33,045 bases of DNA from a virus. The number at the start of each line of letters is the position of its first letter. Within the stretch, counting starts at the first letter, position 1. Shown here piece after piece: positions 13,701-30,884 of the stretch. The DNA is taken from IMG/VR virus record IMGVR_UViG_3300034198_012448, positions 1-33,045 of that record, one strand, 5' to 3'. The position numbers and the translations under genes are program-made. The notes beneath the pieces were generated by a model. It saw only the letters and a list, made by a program, of their open reading frames with translations, did not search any database and had not been told where the DNA came from.

Positions 13701-15147
13701 GGCTCCTACCGGCAGCAGGTTCAAACCCACCCAGTACCTCACTGGGGATCCAAACAGCCCGAATTACCGCGCTGATCACGGCGGCACCGCTAAATACCAC
13801 GACCATCTGGCATTTGGTACACATGCTGAGGCAATGGCTGCTGCCAGAGCATTAATGGCTGCCGGCATCAATGTCACTGAGTTGCAAGGATTGGGTGCGG
13901 GTGTAACGGGCCCCCACAGCGGACCCAATTCAGCTCACATGTCAGGCCTGGCTTTCGATGTACCCGGTTATCAATGGGGAGGGAGCGGAGCCATCGGATC
14001 TCGTGAATATGCAGGTTCTGCAAAAATCCGCTCCATTCTTGGGATGGGCAACTCCAAGGTGGTCAAATCCCAAGGACAAGTTGGAGTGGCAGCAGCCGGT
14101 GTAGATGCCGCAAACAAGGGGCTGAAGGAGCAGATTCCCCTGCTCGAGGAACTTCGTCGGCTCAAGGAGGATGAAGTCATTTCCGGTATTACCAGCTCTT
14201 ACAAGGAGCAGGCCAAGGCCATCACCGACAGCACCGCCAGTTTGAAGCTACGAAACCGTCTCGAAATGGAAGGCGTTAGTCCTGAGATAGTCGACGGCGA
14301 AGTAAAGAAAGCTGAGATTTACGGAAAAGCTGAGGAGCAGGTTAGGGCGCTGCGTGAAAGCCTGGCAGCTCTTGGTCCTAAGACTGAAAAGAACGCAGAT
14401 GTCTTTGACCGGTTTAACCAAGCAATCAACGCCACTGAATCAGGATCGCGGGCTGCTGCCGCCGCCGTTGACGCCAATACCCAAGCTCTTCTCCAACAGA
14501 AAACCCCCGCGTTCGAGCTGGCCAAGAAGTACGGAGATTTACAGGTAGAGCTGGAACGGTTGTCCGACCCCGCAGCCAACATCATCAATGCTGCCGGCTC
14601 GATCAGCGCGGCCTTTGACAATACGTTCACCGCGATCACAACCGGCACCGTTACAGCCCAACAAGCCTTTGCACAGTTCACCCAGTCGCTAGCGGCCAAC
14701 TTCATGAAGATGGCGACTCAGATGATCGCCAAGTGGATTGAGATGAAGATCATCGGCCTGGCCATGAATTTCTTCCCGATGGAACCGTTCTCAGCGCCCG
14801 CAACGACGGGGCTGGGGAGCAATTTTAGTTCAGCCATTGGAAACGACACCGGCATCTCTTGGGGCAGTGCCCTTGGATTTAGAGCAGCCGGCGGTCCTGT
14901 CAGTAGCAACAGCCCCTACATCGTCGGGGAAAAAGGCCCCGAACTCTTTGTTCCTTCCTCAAGCGGTCGGATAATCCCCAACAATTCACTCGCAGGCGGC
15001 ACTACCAATGTGGTCGTAAACGTTGACGCTACCGGCAGCAATGTTCAGGGCGATGCCGCGCAAGCCAAACAACTTGGAGCTGTCGTATCAATGGCGGTTC
15101 AGGCAGAATTGATCAAACAGAAACGTCCTGGAGGGATCCTTGCATAA
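10771..15147 (+). CDS. Tape measure protein with M15-peptidase-like motif
   Basis: The 1458-residue protein sets tail length and is ejected ahead of the DNA. It is the longest gene and lies after the chaperones. The start is a TTG (MATYAANIAIDVLG). Coiled-coil segments alternate with hydrophobic glycine-rich stretches near residues 244-320 and 602-651 (ALGVGFPLLFGGG) that could span membranes. Residues ~983-1095 form a compact domain with YHDHLAF at 1009-1015 and SAHMSGLAFD at 1054-1063, which matches the SxHxxGxAxD zinc-site signature of M15-type peptidases. A distal histidine ligand is not evident, so activity is uncertain. Near the C-terminus GEKGPELFVP (1386-1395) is a motif often seen at the end of tape measures. 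Base composition in the middle (about 12.8-13.4 kb) is more AT-rich. Confidence 0.93.
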   Translation: MATYAANIAIDVLGLGKLDSLERRVNVLRENFTKINAAAANISAPFQNHIQALERMNTLLVANGRLLEQQANAADKLSRAAEGATKGGRGKSGPDPRVLQEQTEQLQRQINLLRDRARVFGAENEAMDKLRGAWVELNRGANGNLTLVRQMIRNARELVKIDEDRAKALEATGGLAIKEYEERLRLARELREFEIETARNLREMRAEDRRRDKADSDARGRVASGLGRIDQAWGSPIKNMVGGLTDSALKFGSVMGIEGALQIPGEGMGVRAIGAHMGGVFEPIANGIASVISAAHHMGPELAVAIAGCLAFSDQLGAMFDTVLKGVPVFGKLGKSILDVTGVTERAKPILSSLSRSVEAMNDNALTNFLYGLGPNSMTLPSTAGAFTERSGANSFGPNLNKELIAALNKELAQFVKESEEATRAWQAFEAAGKSEHARELAQAAEEFAKFKLDSIAETANVQSRIRLRKAETKELYAQANLVKETYGYNGKAPALMPAGFTSNDVGIKNRLDDQAAAAKINADLEMELAKIVNTREMELVQELLNKEITATEQFLAARTAADEKWWAEHAARFEANIKREEEQQAAADQRKKDRSSRLESIALGVGFPLLFGGGTGSVLGSLAGSFVGSGFGGQILGGAIGTAIDELVTKTIAFNKSLAELNAGLPQSGAALRTTAKDVDFLAERLGLAREDALKLVDTFSIFDSAKARKELAAAFGKVGGIETVNALAGMTDEKKAVEEIAKLHKQIGNAATEEALTQLRTNGAKAAQLVIEQKLLEIAFRKSQIEASQPTLKDFGMAIVDNLLAARTGGEPVTYKTYGEKRVAQLKQANAAQVLELLKPLQDLTKNLENARSEFSDKTTNAAKKSAEQVAAEQARINEQLMRDQIEIDNAVWNHRRQLLEEERALRRQIAEAEGRIYGLQQTGGGKSGADIVNQIMSVQRDYQESVLKLKSNQADAMNGLIQAQRGVAATAAGPAPTGSRFKPTQYLTGDPNSPNYRADHGGTAKYHDHLAFGTHAEAMAAARALMAAGINVTELQGLGAGVTGPHSGPNSAHMSGLAFDVPGYQWGGSGAIGSREYAGSAKIRSILGMGNSKVVKSQGQVGVAAAGVDAANKGLKEQIPLLEELRRLKEDEVISGITSSYKEQAKAITDSTASLKLRNRLEMEGVSPEIVDGEVKKAEIYGKAEEQVRALRESLAALGPKTEKNADVFDRFNQAINATESGSRAAAAAVDANTQALLQQKTPAFELAKKYGDLQVELERLSDPAANIINAAGSISAAFDNTFTAITTGTVTAQQAFAQFTQSLAANFMKMATQMIAKWIEMKIIGLAMNFFPMEPFSAPATTGLGSNFSSAIGNDTGISWGSALGFRAAGGPVSSNSPYIVGEKGPELFVPSSSGRIIPNNSLAGGTTNVVVNVDATGSNVQGDAAQAKQLGAVVSMAVQAELIKQKRPGGILA

Positions 15148-15485
15148 TGGCCACATTTCCTAACTACAAGCCGGCATACTCGGCCACAAAAACCAGCCAA
15201 CCAAAGGTCCACAAGACTAAGTTCGGTGACGGGTACGAAAACAGGGTGGTTTTTGGCTTGCACCAGAACCCAAAGGAATGGCAGCTTCAGTTCCTTGTTT
15301 CCGACACCGACGCTGCTGTCATAGAAACATTTTTCGATGTCCAGGGAGGTCGGTCCTCCTTTAACTGGACTACACCAGAAGGAACCTACGGTGACAAGTG
15401 GGTGTGCGAGCAGTGGAGCCGTGAAATGTACGACTACGGACAAAGCAAGATCACCGCAACGTTTAGGCAGGTATTTGAGCCATGA
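15147..15485 (+). CDS. Minor tail protein, gpM-like
   Basis: The 112-residue product fits the lambda gpM family of distal-tail proteins in length and position, directly after the tape measure and before gpL. Motifs include KTKFGDGYENRVVFGLHQNP, a DTDAAVIETFFDVQGG segment and FNWTTPEGTYGDKWVCEQW. These proteins form a ring where the tube meets the tail tip. The ATG overlaps the tape measure stop (TAATG) and the 3' end overlaps the next start (ATGA), so the tail-tip genes are tightly coupled. Confidence 0.85.
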   Translation: MATFPNYKPAYSATKTSQPKVHKTKFGDGYENRVVFGLHQNPKEWQLQFLVSDTDAAVIETFFDVQGGRSSFNWTTPEGTYGDKWVCEQWSREMYDYGQSKITATFRQVFEP

Positions 15486-16666
15486 CCGTCCCCGTCTCAG
15501 AGCTTCAGTCCATAGCGCCTAGCGCGATTATCGAATTGTTTGAGCTGCAGCTCAATACAGCGATCCAAGGCAGTAACACAATTTACCGCTTCCACGCCGG
15601 CACCAACGCAACCGGCACCAATGATGATGTGGTGTGGGCGGGCAACACCTACCAGGCGTTTCCGATTGAGGCCGAAGGTTTTGAATACAGCGGCAACGGC
15701 CAGCTCCCGCGCCCCAAGATCCGCGTCAGCAATATCCTCGGCACCATTACCGCCATCATCCTGGCCACACCGTTAGAAGGCGCCAAGGTCACACGCATCC
15801 GCACGATGGCCAGGTATCTGGATGCGGTGAACTTTGAAGGTGGCACTAATCCCTACGGCACACCTGATCCGACTGCTGAGTTTCCGCGTGAGGTGTACTA
15901 CATCGACCGCAAGAGCGCCGAAACCCGCGATGTGGTGGAGTTTGAACTTGCAGCGGCATTCGATTTAGTCTTTGTACGAGCGCCAAAACGGCAGTGCATT
16001 TCCAACATCTGTCAATGGGTCTACCGCTCGGCCGAATGCAGCTACACCGGGCCGCCAGTTGCCAACGAAAATGACCAACTGCTGACTGGTCTTCGCAGTT
16101 CTCCGCAGGCAATTGCTTACGAAAACGCCAAGATCGCGTTTGAGGCGGTTGTGACGCCTTACAACAATGCCCAGAACGCTCTTAATGCTGCTACCAACAC
16201 GATGAACAGCGCCCAAGGGCAATGGGTTCTGGCTGAAGAACGATATGACGAAAACAACTATGTCGTCGCAAATGCTTCTATTGGCTACTGGAGCGGATAC
16301 GAAGTCTCAATAGGCAGCGAATACAGGATTGGCAGCTACCAGTATTCGAGCTACTGGGGGGATGATTACGTAGATTATTACAGCATCCAGCGGTGGTATT
16401 TGGACTCTTCGCCCGTGACTGCAGCGCAAGCTGCTTACGGTACTGCATTGACTAACTACAACACGGCGTTGGCCAACTACAACACCGCCCTGGCGGCTCG
16501 CAATGCTGCCTTCGCCGCTTGGCAAGCATCACCTTCCTTTCAAAGCGAAATCAATGCTAGCGGTGACGTTTGCGGCAAACGTCTAAGTAGCTGCAAACTC
16601 CGGTTTGGGGCAACCGCTCAGTTGCCATTTGGCTCGTTCCCTGGAGTTGGCACCTACTTCACATGA
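15482..16666 (+). CDS. Minor tail protein gpL-like, iron-sulphur site with large insertion
   Basis: Lambda gpL is a tail-tip protein that binds a [4Fe-4S] cluster through four cysteines. The 394-residue product has the family's N-terminal domain ([36 protein letters not shown]) and cysteines at 172, 177, 186, 364 and 371. The words AECSYTGPP and SSCKLRFG plus the ending [11 protein letters not shown] are diagnostic. Cys177-Cys186 and Cys364-Cys371 keep spacings of 9 and 7, which from memory match lambda. Between them lie ~178 residues instead of the ~23 I recall in lambda. The insert (about 205-360) has Ala/Asn-rich helical arms, such as [20 protein letters not shown], around a Tyr/Ser-rich centre ([17 protein letters not shown]), suggesting a coiled-coil hairpin with an exposed tip. 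The gene overlaps both neighbours by ATGA. Confidence 0.9.
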
Positions 16667-17388
16667 AAACCACCACACGCGCTGCTGCGCTGGAGCACGC
16701 CAAAGCCGAAGATCCACGCGAGGCTTGTGGGTTGGTCGTGGTGGTTAAGGGTCGCGAGCGCTACTGGCCGTGCAAAAACCTCAGCACCGAGCCTGGCGAT
16801 TTCTTCACGCTTGACCCTGAAGACTTTGCCAAGGCTGAGGATGCTGGCGAAGTATTGGCAATTTTTCACAGCCATCCAATATCACCGCCCACACCCAGCC
16901 AAGCGGATCGTGTGGCGTGCGAGAAGTCCGGCCTGCCCTGGTACATCGTCAACCCCAAAACCGAAGCATGGGGAGAGTGCAAGCCATGCGGTTACGTTGC
17001 TCCGCTGATTGGTCGTGAATGGACGTGGGGGCAAACAGACTGCTGGAGCCTGGTGCGCGATTACTACGGCGAGCAGGGCATCGTGCTACCAGATTGGGAA
17101 CGACCGCTCACCTACGCCGAGTTTGAGGCCAATCCCATGTTTGAAGGCTGCTGGCGGGAGGCAGGCTTTGAGCAGGTATCCGAGGAGGACATTCAACCCG
17201 GCGATGCGGTGCTGATGTGCGTTTCAGGCACCGGACTCAATCACGTTGGCGTCTACCTCGGCGATCAGATGCTGCTGCACCACCTCGGGCCCAACAGGCT
17301 TTCCAGCAGAGATATTTATGGTGGCTGGATACGCAAGTGCGTGGGCTGGGTGGGTCGGCTTAAAATAGACAAAGGGTCGGCGGTCTAA
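16663..17388 (+). CDS. Tail tip peptidase, gpK-like (JAMM + NlpC/P60)
   Basis: This protein (241 aa) joins two peptidase modules, as in lambda gpK. The N-terminal JAMM/MPN metalloprotease domain shows Glu20, HSHP at 69-72 and Ser79/Asp82 in PTPSQAD. The C-terminal NlpC/P60 domain shows the catalytic Cys127 in [12 protein letters not shown], His194 in [11 protein letters not shown] and a following HH at 206-207. All key residues appear intact in both domains. The family processes tail-tip components or cuts peptidoglycan during entry; which job applies here is not decided by sequence. It sits between gpL and gpI, overlapping both. Confidence 0.92.
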
Positions 17389-17999
17389 TGCGCGAGATCA
17401 GGATCTACGGAGCATTGGCCAAGTTTCTCAAGCGGCGCGTGTTTCGCGCTGAGGTGGCATCAGCAGCAGAAGCTGTGCGGTTTCTGGTGGCCAATTTCCC
17501 CGCCGTCGAAAAGCACATGGCGGATCAGCATTACCGGGTAAGTCTTGGCGAGCGCGACCTTGATCTAGAAGAGATCCATGATCCTGCCGGCCAACAGGTG
17601 ATCAAGATCGTGCCCGTGGTGGCCGGCGCCGGCAAAGTCGGATCAATTATTGCCGGCGTAGCGTTAATCGCTCTTGCGATTGCGGTCCCAGGGCTTGGTG
17701 CAGCAGCAGGAGCACAAGCAGCGGCCACAATCTTCGGGACAGGATTCAGTTCACTTTCGCTTTCTGTAGGGCTTCTTGGCGCCAGCTTGGTGCTCGGTGG
17801 TGTCGCTCAACTTTTGACGCCCACACCAACACTTTCAACTGGCACTGATTCCAACAACGACCCTCGCAAGTCTTATAGCTTTAGCTCAATTCAGAACACA
17901 TCGCGCCAAGGCACGCCCGTGCCCGTGGTTTACGGCGAAACCATCGTCGGCTCTGTCGTAATCAGCGCCGGCATTGACATCGCGCAGAAGGCGGCATGA
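17388..17999 (+). CDS. Tail assembly protein gpI-like
   Basis: The 203-residue product fits lambda gpI-type tail assembly proteins in place and build. Residues 1-77 look like a ubiquitin/beta-grasp domain ([19 protein letters not shown] ... DPAGQQVIKIVPVVAG). Two hydrophobic glycine/alanine-rich segments follow at ~84-113 and ~123-143. The C-terminal tail reads GTPVPVVYGETIVGSVVISA, a pattern shared by this family. The protein is needed to make the tip but is generally not part of the finished virion. Its ATG overlaps the gpK stop (TAATG) and its stop overlaps the gpJ start (ATGA). Confidence 0.88.
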   Translation: MREIRIYGALAKFLKRRVFRAEVASAAEAVRFLVANFPAVEKHMADQHYRVSLGERDLDLEEIHDPAGQQVIKIVPVVAGAGKVGSIIAGVALIALAIAVPGLGAAAGAQAAATIFGTGFSSLSLSVGLLGASLVLGGVAQLLTPTPTLSTGTDSNNDPRKSYSFSSIQNTSRQGTPVPVVYGETIVGSVVISAGIDIAQKAA

Positions 18000-20900
18000 C
18001 CTTAATACGTGGTGCTAAAGGTGGCGGTGGCGGCGGCTTCAAAGGCGGTGGCGGTGGCGGTTCACAGCACACACCAACCGAAGCAGGCAACAGTCTGTTC
18101 TCTACGTCCTACGCCAAACTGGTCGATTTGATCAGCGAAGGTGAAATATATGGCCTTAAAGATGGGCTGAAATCGATCTACGTTGACAACACACCGCTGC
18201 AAAACGCAGACGGATCGTACAACTTTCAAAACGTTAGCGTTTTTACTCGCACCGGCACTGACGCAAAAACACAAACCTACATTCCCGGATTTGACGACGT
18301 TGGCAACGAAGTTGCTGTTGGTGTCACAGTGCAGCAAGCCACGCCCGTGGTGCGCAGCATCACCAACACAGCTGTTAACGCAGCGCGGGTCACTATCACC
18401 GTGCCTGCGCTTCAGCAAATTCAAGACAACGGTGACATCAACGGCACCAACGTGCAGTTACGCATTGCCGTGCAATATAACGGTGGCGGTTATACGACGG
18501 TTATTGATGACACGATTAGCGGACGCACCTCGCAGCAATACCAAAAACAATACCTAGTAAACCTCAGCGGCGCATTTCCGGTAGACATCAAAGTCACTCG
18601 CGTCACGGACGATAGCGGCAGCGCCAAACTTGCCAATGCTTTTAGCTGGAGCAGCTATACCGAAGTCACCTACGCCAAGTTGGCCTATCCCAACTCGGCG
18701 ATAATTGGAATTCGTATTGATTCAGAACAGTTTAGTAGTATTCCTAACCGTTCATATCGGATTCGTGGCATCAAAGTCAAGATTCCAAGTAACGCCACTG
18801 TTGATGGCCCCACCGGAAGGCTAATCTATTCCGGTGTTTGGAATGGCACCTTTGGCGCGGCGCAATGGTGTAGCGACCCCGCTTGGTGCTTATGGGATTT
18901 ACTGACCAGTACCCGCTATGGCTTTGGCAATCACATCGACACCAGCCAGCTTGACAAATGGGCGTTCTATTCCGCTAGCCAGTATTGCTCAGCCTTGGTG
19001 CCTAATGGTTTTGGTAGCACAGAGCCGCGTTTTTCTTGCAACGTTAATCTTCAAACCGAAGAGGACGCTTACAAGCTCATCAACGATATGTGCTCGGTGT
19101 TCCGAGCTATGCCGTATTGGAGCACTGGCTCGCTCACGGTCGCACAAGATAAGCCATCCGATCCCGCCTATCTTTTCACCTACGCCAACGTCGATGAAGC
19201 TGCCTTTAATTACAGCGGCTCCAGCCTAAAAACCAGGCCAAACGTGGCTGTGGTTCAGTACATGGATCTTGACCTTAGAAATACGGCCAGAGAGGTGGTT
19301 GAGAACGCGGCAGCGATTGCAAAATACGGAGTTATCAAAACTGAAGTAACCGCTTTTGCTTGTACCTCTCGGGGTCAAGCTAATCGCGTTGGTGATTGGC
19401 TGCTGTACACGGCCAACAATGAAGCTACAGAAACAGTCACTTTTACCGCATCCATCGACGCGGGCGTGATAGTGCGCCCTGGCCAGGTCATCGAGATCAG
19501 CGACCCCGTGCGGGCTGGCTCAAGGCGCGGCGGACGTATCCACGCGGCTACAACAACCGTCATCACCGTCGATGACGCAACTGAGTTAACTAAAGCTGCT
19601 ACCTATTCTCAAAGTGGAACCACAATTACTGTCACGACAACAACAGCCCATGGGCTAGTCGCTGGCGATACCGTGTTGCTGGACTTTACCAGCGGAATTG
19701 CAATTGACGGGGCCTACACAGTTGTCACAGCCCTAGCCACCTCTTTTACGGTCGCTAGTGGTACGAGTGGAACAACAAGTGGCAATGTTTTATGGTCGGC
19801 TTTTTCTCCCACAATTTCAGTAATCTTGAGCGATGGAACAGTTCAAACTCGATCAGTCTCAAGCATTAGTGGCAATGCAATCACAGTGTCATCTGCGTTC
19901 AGCTCCGCGCCCAATGCCAATAGCGTTTGGATCTACGAGACGACCGACCTAAAAACCACCACTTGGCGGGTGCTGGGCGTACAAGAACAAGATCAATGCA
20001 AATATGCCATTACGGCACTGGCATACGACAGCGGCAAATACGATTACATCGAGCGCGGCGTTGCGCTTCAGGCCCGGAGCGTTAGCAATCTCAACAACGT
20101 CCCAGCAGCGCCCACCAACCTCAGCCTTACGGAAGCGCTGTACAAATACCGCGATCAGGTCAGCTCCAAGATCATCATCACCTGGCAAGGCATCCAAGGC
20201 ATTAGTCAATATCTGGTCAAATACCGCAAGGACTCCGGCAACTGGACCACGGTCACAAGGCAACACCAAGAATACGAAATTCTTGATACCACCCCTGGTT
20301 TTTTTGAGGTCAACATTTACAGCCTAAGCGCGGGCGGGCAATCGTCTGCCACGGCACTTTCCGGCAGCATTGCAGCCCTAGGTAAGACCGCACCACCGGC
20401 CAACGTGCCGGCGCTTTATGCCGTACTGGATCCTGACGTTGGTGTCACGTTGAACTGGGAGCCTGTCACGGATTTGGATATTCAGGGCTATGAAATCTGG
20501 CAAGGGCCAGCCTGGGGTAGCGGCACCAAGCTTGGTGTGTTTGCAGCCACCAGCAAAAAGCTGGGCTTGCTGTCGGCAGGCACTACAACATGGTGGATCA
20601 AGGCGCTAGATACCAGCGGGTCTTACAGCACCACAGCTACCAGTGCATCAATCACAATCACAGCAGCCGGTAGGCCGACAACCAGCGGTTCATTTAGCAA
20701 CGACACTTTTAATTTGAAATGGACTGCGGTAGCGGGCAGCTTGAGGACGGCTTTATACGAAGTGCGTTACGGCACAGTGTTTGATACGTGGGGAACGGCA
20801 AACGTGCTTGGCGCCGTTTTGGGGACAACTTATTCAATCAAAGGCACTTGGGCTTACACGCGTCGATTCTTTGTTGCGGCTATTGATCTTAAAGGCAACG

Positions 20901-21922
20901 TCGGGGCCAGCGCCACCTACGACGCTGTGATCAGCTTGCCGTATGCACCGACTATCACTCAACAAGTTGTTGATAATAACGTGCTGTTGCAATGGAGTGA
21001 CACCAAACTGACACTACCTATCACGTCATACGAATTGCGCAAAGGATCTACATACGCTACTTCTACCTTAATCGGCACCAAACAAGGCAGATTTACTACG
21101 GTATTTGAATCAGATTCTGGCCTTTACACCTATTGGATTACTGGCATTGATTCGGCGGGCAACTACGGAACGCCCGCCTCTGTTAGCGCACAGGTCAATC
21201 AACCACCAGACTATGTGCTTAAACTGGATTACAACAGTGCTTTTACAGGTACTAAAAAATATATGGTGCCATACGGCACGGGATTGTTAACGCTTGTAAA
21301 TAGCACAGAAACGTGGACTACGCATTTTACCAGCCGTGGCTGGTCCAGTCCGCAAGACCAAATTAACGCAGGCTACGACTATTTCTTAATGCCTTCACCA
21401 ACGGGGGGTCTTTACACAGAGGACATTGATTACGGCGCTGTTCTGTCTGGCACCAGAATTACCATGACACTCACATCAAAAGTTGTTGCTGGTAGCATCA
21501 CTATCACACCAACCATTAAGGTGAAGAAACTTAGCACCGATGCTTGGACCGTTTATTCAGGTGTTAACTCTGTTTTTGTCACTGATATTCGCTACGTCCG
21601 AGCACAGTACGACTTTTTTAGCCCATCAACTAAAAGTTTGACTGAAATAACCGGACTAAACGTGCGCCTGGACTCAAAGCTTCGCAATGATTCCGGTAGA
21701 GGCACAGCGGTTTCTACGGACAGCGACGGAACGGTCGTGAACTTCAACGTTGCGTTTGTGGATGTGGACAGCATCTCCGTCACGGCAAGAGGTACGACTG
21801 CCGTCACAGCTGTTTACTCATTTACGGATGTAGCGAACCCAACTAGTTTCAAAGTGCTTTTATTTGATACAACTGGCGCTAGAGTTAGTGGAGCCTTTTC
21901 GTGGAGTGCTCGGGGCGTCTAA
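17996..21922 (+). CDS. Tail tip hub / host-specificity protein gpJ-like
   Basis: The 1308-residue protein is the central tail hub that contacts the receptor. After a glycine-rich leader (residues 9-24) it carries the gpJ signature SYAKLVDLISEGEIYGLKDG near 39-58 and hub domains with LWDLLTSTRYGFG near 300. Residues ~525-600 form a Thr/Gly/Ser-rich insert (AHGLVAGDTVLLDFTSGIAI) of a kind seen as small beta domains in tail proteins. From ~700 there are about four fibronectin-III-like domains, the first beginning AAPTNLSLTEALYKY. The final ~230 residues look like a receptor-facing beta region. The chain is somewhat longer than lambda gpJ. It ends directly against the next ATG. Confidence 0.92.
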   Translation: MTLIRGAKGGGGGGFKGGGGGGSQHTPTEAGNSLFSTSYAKLVDLISEGEIYGLKDGLKSIYVDNTPLQNADGSYNFQNVSVFTRTGTDAKTQTYIPGFDDVGNEVAVGVTVQQATPVVRSITNTAVNAARVTITVPALQQIQDNGDINGTNVQLRIAVQYNGGGYTTVIDDTISGRTSQQYQKQYLVNLSGAFPVDIKVTRVTDDSGSAKLANAFSWSSYTEVTYAKLAYPNSAIIGIRIDSEQFSSIPNRSYRIRGIKVKIPSNATVDGPTGRLIYSGVWNGTFGAAQWCSDPAWCLWDLLTSTRYGFGNHIDTSQLDKWAFYSASQYCSALVPNGFGSTEPRFSCNVNLQTEEDAYKLINDMCSVFRAMPYWSTGSLTVAQDKPSDPAYLFTYANVDEAAFNYSGSSLKTRPNVAVVQYMDLDLRNTAREVVENAAAIAKYGVIKTEVTAFACTSRGQANRVGDWLLYTANNEATETVTFTASIDAGVIVRPGQVIEISDPVRAGSRRGGRIHAATTTVITVDDATELTKAATYSQSGTTITVTTTTAHGLVAGDTVLLDFTSGIAIDGAYTVVTALATSFTVASGTSGTTSGNVLWSAFSPTISVILSDGTVQTRSVSSISGNAITVSSAFSSAPNANSVWIYETTDLKTTTWRVLGVQEQDQCKYAITALAYDSGKYDYIERGVALQARSVSNLNNVPAAPTNLSLTEALYKYRDQVSSKIIITWQGIQGISQYLVKYRKDSGNWTTVTRQHQEYEILDTTPGFFEVNIYSLSAGGQSSATALSGSIAALGKTAPPANVPALYAVLDPDVGVTLNWEPVTDLDIQGYEIWQGPAWGSGTKLGVFAATSKKLGLLSAGTTTWWIKALDTSGSYSTTATSASITITAAGRPTTSGSFSNDTFNLKWTAVAGSLRTALYEVRYGTVFDTWGTANVLGAVLGTTYSIKGTWAYTRRFFVAAIDLKGNVGASATYDAVISLPYAPTITQQVVDNNVLLQWSDTKLTLPITSYELRKGSTYATSTLIGTKQGRFTTVFESDSGLYTYWITGIDSAGNYGTPASVSAQVNQPPDYVLKLDYNSAFTGTKKYMVPYGTGLLTLVNSTETWTTHFTSRGWSSPQDQINAGYDYFLMPSPTGGLYTEDIDYGAVLSGTRITMTLTSKVVAGSITITPTIKVKKLSTDAWTVYSGVNSVFVTDIRYVRAQYDFFSPSTKSLTEITGLNVRLDSKLRNDSGRGTAVSTDSDGTVVNFNVAFVDVDSISVTARGTTAVTAVYSFTDVANPTSFKVLLFDTTGARVSGAFSWSARGV

Positions 21923-29585: not shown

Positions 29586-30884
29586 ATGCCCCAGCCCCGC
29601 ATCCGAATCGGATACATCCGCGTTTCCACCGCCAGCGAAGAGCAGCTGTCCGCCCTCGAAAACCAACGCAGCCGCATCAAAGCCGCAGGCGTGGACAGGA
29701 TTTACGAGGATGTCGCCTCGGGCCTCAGCCAAACCAGAGCGGGGTTTGGCGAGGTCGAAAAGCTGATCGATAGCAAGACAGTTTCAGAACTGGTTGTCAC
29801 ACGGATTGACCGACTGGGCCGCCAGGCCGACGCGGTGGACCTGTTCCTCTTCTTTGCCGCCAAACGCAAAACCCTGGTCACGGCGCTGGATGGCGGCACC
29901 GTCGATACCGATTCGCCCTACGGCTTTTTCCAAAGCCGACTGTGGACCTCGCTGGCGGAACTGGAATCCCGGATGCTGTCCCTGCGCATCCATAGGGGAT
30001 TGGCGGCGGCGCGGAAGATTCGGAAACCGCTGCGGGGCAGGGCGCCCTGGGGCTACCAAATCACGGAAGACAAGAAGGCTTTAACACTCGATCCAGTGGA
30101 GGCGCCGAGAGCAAGCGCCTTTATTGAACTGCTCAAAGGCCTGGACTGGCGAATGAACACCGCCCTGGATGTGTGGGCTGCTACCGGTCATGGCGACATT
30201 CCTCTCCACTCCTGCAGGGCGGTCAGGGCGTGGCTACTAAATCCAATCCTTCGCGGAGGTATCGGGTACAACCAACGTGCCAACCACCAGTTTGATGAAA
30301 TCGTATGGGACACTCACGCAGCACTACTGACCAAGGAAGAATTCAATAAATACGAAGCGACTCTTGCAAAAAACAAAAGGCTCTGGGGGGTTAACGCGAC
30401 GATGAAAGTTCGATTGCTTACCGGCCTATGCGTATGCACCCGATGCGGCCTGCGAATGCCCTACGCAGGGGGAAGGGTGCATCCGGCGCTTTTATGCAAA
30501 AACCGCATGTGCTCGCAACGTTACAAGTCGACACCTGAGTCGGTGGTCAATGCAGCAATCTGCAGCACTCTGTCGCATCGGGCGGAGGAGATCGCCACCC
30601 ACGTTGCTGTTGAGTCGCCAGAAGAAATCGAACTGAAGGCTTCCATTGCAAAACTTGAAGCAATGCAAGACTCCGACCTAGAGGGGGTTCTCGGCGAAAA
30701 ACGGGAAAAATTGCGCAAACTGCATAAAGGGGTGTCTATAGACACCGAGCTCATGGAAGCACTACGGGATCCCGCTTTCTGGGACGCTTACTCCTACGAC
30801 GAGAAGGTAGACCTATTTCGGACGTTGGTGGACAAAGTAGAGATTCAGGATCAGTCGGTGCTGAGGGTGGTTCCTCGCGTTTGA
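29586..30884 (+). CDS. Large serine recombinase (XisF-like integrase/excisionase)
   Basis: The 432-residue product is a large serine recombinase that would catalyse site-specific integration or excision. The resolvase domain has IGYIRVST with the catalytic Ser14 and the conserved VTRIDRLGR motif. The recombinase domain follows (RAPWGYQI; RAVRAWLLNPILRGGIGY). A zinc ribbon has Cys282, 284, 287, 304 and 309 (VCTRCG and CKNRMC). A coiled coil lies at ~345-390. The build resembles cyanobacterial XisF proteins, which excise a DNA element in heterocysts, but it is shorter than the ~510 residues I recall for XisF. Its 3' end overlaps an antisense ORF. No att core was recognised. Confidence 0.92.
   Translation: MPQPRIRIGYIRVSTASEEQLSALENQRSRIKAAGVDRIYEDVASGLSQTRAGFGEVEKLIDSKTVSELVVTRIDRLGRQADAVDLFLFFAAKRKTLVTALDGGTVDTDSPYGFFQSRLWTSLAELESRMLSLRIHRGLAAARKIRKPLRGRAPWGYQITEDKKALTLDPVEAPRASAFIELLKGLDWRMNTALDVWAATGHGDIPLHSCRAVRAWLLNPILRGGIGYNQRANHQFDEIVWDTHAALLTKEEFNKYEATLAKNKRLWGVNATMKVRLLTGLCVCTRCGLRMPYAGGRVHPALLCKNRMCSQRYKSTPESVVNAAICSTLSHRAEEIATHVAVESPEEIELKASIAKLEAMQDSDLEGVLGEKREKLRKLHKGVSIDTELMEALRDPAFWDAYSYDEKVDLFRTLVDKVEIQDQSVLRVVPRV

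Follow-up and report, generated by a model that had tools for sequence, protein, structure and literature searches.

We found that the gpL-like tail-tip protein encoded in the window, by which we mean the whole 33,045-nt stretch of virus record IMGVR_UViG_3300034198_012448, carries a large in-frame insert between its two presumed iron-sulfur cysteine pairs. We propose, with a probability of roughly 0.6, that this insert is an exchangeable accessory adhesin mounted on a coiled-coil stalk that leaves the Fe-S domain. To our knowledge, gpL has so far been seen chiefly as a hub and assembly protein, and its Fe-S cluster has no known role.

The protein was assigned to the gpL family on the basis of a PF05100 (Phage_tail_L) match (E 9.7e-56; 188.8 bits against a curated cut-off of 25), a phrog_18 (minor tail protein) match (E 3.2e-84), and a Foldseek search in which lambda gpL (8iyk_L) was the best PDB match (E 1.4e-7); by sequence, the nearest solved structures were the F2 pyocin hub protein and lambda gpL. 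The PF05100 match was split in two, with residues 33-201 corresponding to profile positions 6-170, the C-terminal part corresponding to positions 173-204, and the insert lying between them. The surrounding genes followed the order M-L-K-I-J (PF05939, PF05100, JAB-NlpC/P60, a 203-aa ORF at the I position, and gpJ with PF24801; Table 1). Lambda gpL (PF05100; PMC10721106; Tam et al. 2013) shares with this protein the two domains, the four cysteines at the same spacings, and the gene order, but has 22 residues from Cys182 to Cys205 and no finger. The protein contains cysteines at positions 172, 177, 186, 364, and 371, and the spacings C177-x8-C186 and C364-x6-C371 equal those of lambda Cys173/182 and Cys205/212 (PMC10721106). 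The four [4Fe-4S] ligand positions named in the first-pass annotation were thus confirmed in their spacing, and by homology they are the presumed ligands here; Cys172 is an additional conserved cysteine that the annotation had not listed.

Table 1. Features of the gpL-like protein and its neighboring genes (positions in the window).
Feature	Position	Strand	Basis
gpM-like distal tail protein, upstream neighbor	15147..15485	+	PF05939 E 3.9e-23
gpL-like tail-tip (hub) protein, 394 aa	15482..16666	+	PF05100, phrog_18, Foldseek 8iyk_L
HDI-like attachment domain, about residues 1-166	15482..15979	+	aligns with lambda gpL and F2-pyocin hub protein
First presumed Fe-S cysteine pair, Cys177 and Cys186	16010..16039	+	invariant in 37-row gpL alignment
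Enlarged loop between cysteine pairs, 177 residues (normal 21-22)	16040..16570	+	cysteine positions; nucleotide homology break
Predicted stalk arm 1, residues 202-243	16085..16210	+	predicted helix 208-243, high pLDDT; length 41-42 aa across family
Predicted variable beta head, residues 244-308	16211..16405	+	six predicted strands; lowest identity, nearly all indels
Predicted stalk arm 2, residues 309-350, YNTALAN-type heptads	16406..16531	+	predicted helix 310-349; length always 42 aa
Second presumed Fe-S cysteine pair, Cys364 and Cys371, plus C-terminal segment	16571..16663	+	C364, K366, C371 invariant in 37-row gpL alignment
gpK-like JAB and NlpC/P60 protein, downstream neighbor	16663..17388	+	PF14464 E 1.8e-17; PF00877 E 2.1e-17
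gpJ-like central hub and fiber protein	17996..21922	+	PF24801 FNIII-A_GpJ E 2.9e-40; PF13550 E 5e-18

The loop from C186 to C364 comprises 177 residues, compared with 22 in lambda gpL and 21-22 in the nearest relatives, an excess of about 155 residues; together with the split profile match, this bore out the earlier reading of a gpL-like protein with a large insertion between its cysteine pairs. Nucleotide homology to the insert-less relative L014 was 81-84% on both flanks, stopped at 16050, and resumed at 16564, which places both breakpoints just inside the cysteine pairs. Among cultured phages, so long a loop is unusual: an insert-less relative matched 1442 annotated phage records, and each of the 60 rows in a spread sample of these was a single uninterrupted match. 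A chance or assembly artifact was ruled out, because independent contigs carry homologous inserts (41-54% identical) in frame at the same place.

An AlphaFold2 model built on a 37-row alignment of gpL predicted that the insert consists of a helix (208-243), six strands within residues 247-308, and a second helix (310-349), with pLDDT values of 76-96 over residues 201-360 and mostly 86-96 in the helical hairpin; the gpL core and cysteine region were modelled at low confidence, with pLDDT below 50 around the cysteines. The heptads of the second arm showed a lag-7 identity of 0.49, whereas no other lag exceeded 0.21. As modelled, this helix/beta head/helix insert with arms of constant length is a coiled-coil finger family. 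The two helical arms suggested at first pass were upheld, whereas the loose Tyr/Ser/Asp-rich center was replaced by a predicted folded beta domain. Pfam and PDB profile searches for a known fold gave only chance coiled-coil matches, and Foldseek matches to TolC, prefoldin, and SMC lacked significance; a match was obtained to the 435-aa BFVD protein A0A7T5QUL0 (E 3.5e-15). The head had no significant structural match in Foldseek, and neither sequence nor fold tied it to a binding domain.

A second family with a helix-beta head-helix layout was found in gpLs of the type encoded by the cultured Synechococcus phage S-CBS4 (NC_016766). The 465-aa S-CBS4 gpL, annotated only as a minor tail protein, carries a finger in the same cysteine loop (hhalign of the insert profile against S-CBS4: E 2.3e-5, probability 76%), and a lower-confidence model predicted helix 198-234, a beta region at 241-383, and helix 387-422. 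The two proteins share the loop, the layout, and the entry motif GPP/A.AN..D, whereas the S-CBS4 head is about twice as large and unrelated in sequence. The larger S-CBS4-type finger occurs in about 25 further contigs. In fingers of this type (L117-L142), Cys235 and Cys389 are invariant, one at each arm end, and they possibly form a staple at the head-stalk junction.

About a dozen further gpLs of uncultured viruses carry the finger of the window in frame and at the same position. Searched on its own, the insert was found in IMG/VR loci only, and in those examined it lay in gpL at the same site; pattern and tblastn searches of GTDB species genomes and of annotated phages gave no relative, although the low-complexity filter may hide coiled coils. 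An unrelated selfish element was rejected, as no sequence context other than gpL was found in these searches. The insert is absent from L012, whose gpL core is the nearest (97% identical), and the cores of insert-bearing relatives are only 64-77% identical to that of our protein. The insert-bearing gpLs need at least five changes on the gpL core tree, and a tree grouping them, as expected from a single origin following the core, was strongly rejected; the insert has therefore been repeatedly exchanged or lost. Present and absent among close relatives, it is an optional module in a conserved tail-tip scaffold, and the relatives without it have cores up to 97% identical and gpJ N-termini up to 90% identical. 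Among the close relatives compared, no consistent change in gpM, gpI, or gpJ accompanied the insert. These comparisons indicate that the insert is a real, reusable module and not a drifted loop. The alternative that a long loop is normal in this clade held only in part, since some relatives have the finger and the closest ones do not, as befits a polymorphic module.

Within the family, the arms hold their length (41-42 and 42 residues) and the head spans 65-72 residues. The core is the most conserved part (75% identity), followed by the arms (53-64%) and the head (47%), with only 26% identity left in hairpin 284-297. Of the 16 amino-acid changes that separate the close pair L010/L011, 13 fell in about 50 head codons. 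The head showed an excess of non-synonymous changes over the rest of the protein in L010/L011 (p 2.4e-4), L004/L087 (p 2.1e-6), and L009/L010 (p 3e-6), but the excess was weak or absent in the L007 comparisons and in close S-CBS4-type pairs. The pN/pS of the arms was 0.02-0.05 in L010/L011 and L004/L087. Synonymous divergence was also raised in the head of these close pairs (0.41 versus 0.08-0.13), as would be expected from local recombination. Since pN/pS was below 1 everywhere, in arms and head alike, relaxed constraint plus recombination would explain the head pattern as well as positive selection. The position of the variability supports the view that the head evolves like a host-contact surface. 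A diversity-generating retroelement was considered for the Tyr/Ser/Asp-rich head and judged unlikely, as the L010/L011 substitutions were not adenine-limited.

The same data bear on another reading, in which the finger would be a structural brace or docking post whose stalk packs on gpJ or attaches side fibers without host contact. The constant arm lengths and the strong constraint on the arms in two close pairs would suit such a part, as would the report that the gpL-like protein and the distal tail protein of phage JBD30 form tail-fiber attachment sites (PMC11445458). However, it is the head and not the arms that varies most, gpM, gpI, and gpJ do not change consistently with the insert, and the near relatives described above, with their almost identical cores, lack it, so that the core machine does not need the insert; we therefore regard a purely structural role as unlikely.

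Analysis of 231 distinct gpL sequences, a set gathered with queries near this clade whose frequencies are not population estimates, placed large insertions almost only at three sites, namely site A at about residue 117, site B in the cysteine loop, and site C following the last of the four cysteines. Five insert clusters were seen at site B, namely the finger, a B_lectin-like (bulb-lectin-like) region of 291-296 residues (E 3.6e-6, below the Pfam curated cut-off), an 85-residue EGR repeat (21 loci), a 70-residue domain weakly like an endosialidase barrel, and a short insert; in related phages, this loop thus takes at least four unrelated inserts. The inserts at site C are beta-rich, and L016 has a B_lectin-like domain there. 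One gpL (L069) combines a jelly-roll-like insert of about 200 residues at site A with the finger at site B. In gpJ of the window, a beta domain (HGLVAGDTVLLDFTSG...; about 19540-19740) resembles the 70-residue site B insert of L192, L155, and L177. A cupredoxin-like insert with a C-x2-H-x3-M copper-type motif was observed at site A in 74 distinct marine gpLs (L083, L224-L303, relatives of Marine virus AG-345-A17), all without the Fe-S cysteine segment; the site-A cluster and the "noFeS" label are partly artifacts of the search patterns, which missed REP gpLs with different flanks, and the re-check that followed was limited to these 74 rows. The gpL of Prochlorococcus phage MED4-184 (L116:1201-1773) is 190 aa long and also lacks the Fe-S domain.

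The stalk would exit exactly between the two ligand pairs, which is the best place to part them, and it has been proposed that hub proteins destabilize the RcGTA baseplate when they bind the receptor (PMC7296036); the finger could accordingly be imagined as a signal lever through which head contact strains the Fe-S site and helps trigger tail-tip opening. We consider this improbable, because the cysteine loop holds five kinds of flexible or globular inserts, or none, so that no shared lever geometry is kept, sites A and C, which are away from the cluster, accept comparable inserts, the cluster is missing altogether from some marine gpLs, and the finger showed no pattern of redox residues. The first-pass idea that the insert senses the cluster state likewise gained no support. 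Mostly neutral decoration of a tolerant surface loop by in-frame insertions kept through recombination, with no set function, would fit the sporadic distribution, the near relatives that dispense with the insert, and the existence of three tolerant loops in all, but it earns little credence against an open frame under purifying selection in arms and head (pN/pS < 1) across divergent contigs, conserved insert motifs (W, YR.G, I[QE]RW), and unrelated alternative inserts that include sugar-binding folds.

For the accessory adhesin that we favor, the two helices of 36-40 residues would form an antiparallel stalk, about 5-6 nm long if straight, with the small beta head on top, and this stalk would leave the gpL Fe-S domain between the cysteine pairs. 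Three finger copies per virion would presumably ring the tail tip beside gpJ. Because the Fe-S domain of lambda gpL faces outward (PMC10721106), the fingers may point outward as well and the heads would touch a host-surface polysaccharide or protein, a contact that could help the virion adsorb and orient itself before gpJ binds its receptor. By closing the loop, the Fe-S cluster may form a rigid clamp and hold the stalk in place. Binding of the host surface by the head is suggested indirectly by the variability of the head, the exchange of the module, and the lectin-like alternative inserts.

The insertion site and the idea of a host-contact insert have precedents. The hubs of RcGTA (Rcc01696; PMC7296036) and roseophage R4C (PMC10276861), seen by cryo-EM, are the Fe-S counterparts of gpL and carry an oligosaccharide-binding domain of about 80 residues between their cysteine segments, at the same location as the finger, and binding of host oligosaccharides by these inserts was proposed by the authors (PMC7296036, PMC10276861). 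In these hubs the insert is a compact oligosaccharide-binding fold and has no coiled-coil stalk, whereas helices of 36-40 residues and a beta head are predicted here; no sequence link to the finger was found, and these hubs are not among the Foldseek matches listed. The gpL-like gp50 of JBD30 has an 81-residue gap between its cysteine pairs (PMC11445458). Evolved Dit and Tal proteins of Gram-positive siphophages similarly carry carbohydrate-binding modules in peripheral loops of a conserved tail-tip scaffold, but the carrier protein and the inserts are different, and host binding, which we infer for the finger, has been shown for Dit/Tal (PMC7291167). The C-terminal region of gpL is hypervariable according to the LSH1 paper, which describes domain loss or replacement and not stalked inserts between the cysteines (PMC13243795). 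In the literature found, no description of a coiled-coil stalk with a variable head on such hubs was met. The first-pass claim that no described gpL has such a projection thus stands for the stalk and fails for the site, given RcGTA, R4C, and JBD30 gp50, and S-CBS4 has a finger too; the claim of a coiled-coil finger projecting from the metal site agrees with the stalk predicted between the cysteine pairs, its direction being presumed.

The gpL protein appears as a scaffold in which unrelated and partly sugar-binding domains are taken up at three insertion sites, of which one is closed by the cluster. More tentatively, the Fe-S loop of gpL might serve aquatic siphophages in general as a socket for interchangeable host-contact domains, with the finger as a distinct receptor-binding device whose head is swapped by local recombination to change host specificity, and with the cluster as a clamp. 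A clamp holding an open loop would offer a testable reason for the Fe-S cluster of gpL. This view of gpL also points to an overlooked host-range determinant in cyanophages, for which the cultured S-CBS4 on Synechococcus CB0101 is available.

Among cultured phages, the terminase is closest to those of the cyanophages S-H1, KBS-S-2A, and MED4-184, cyanophages are prominent among the relatives of the capsid protein, and in the genome collection gpL most closely matches a contig from a cyanobacterial MAG; a cyanobacterium is therefore the probable host, and the virus is probably a cyanosiphophage. The finger-bearing viruses, mostly uncultured, probably infect cyanobacteria. An ORF at 29586-30884 (432 aa) looks like a large serine recombinase, which suggests a temperate phage.
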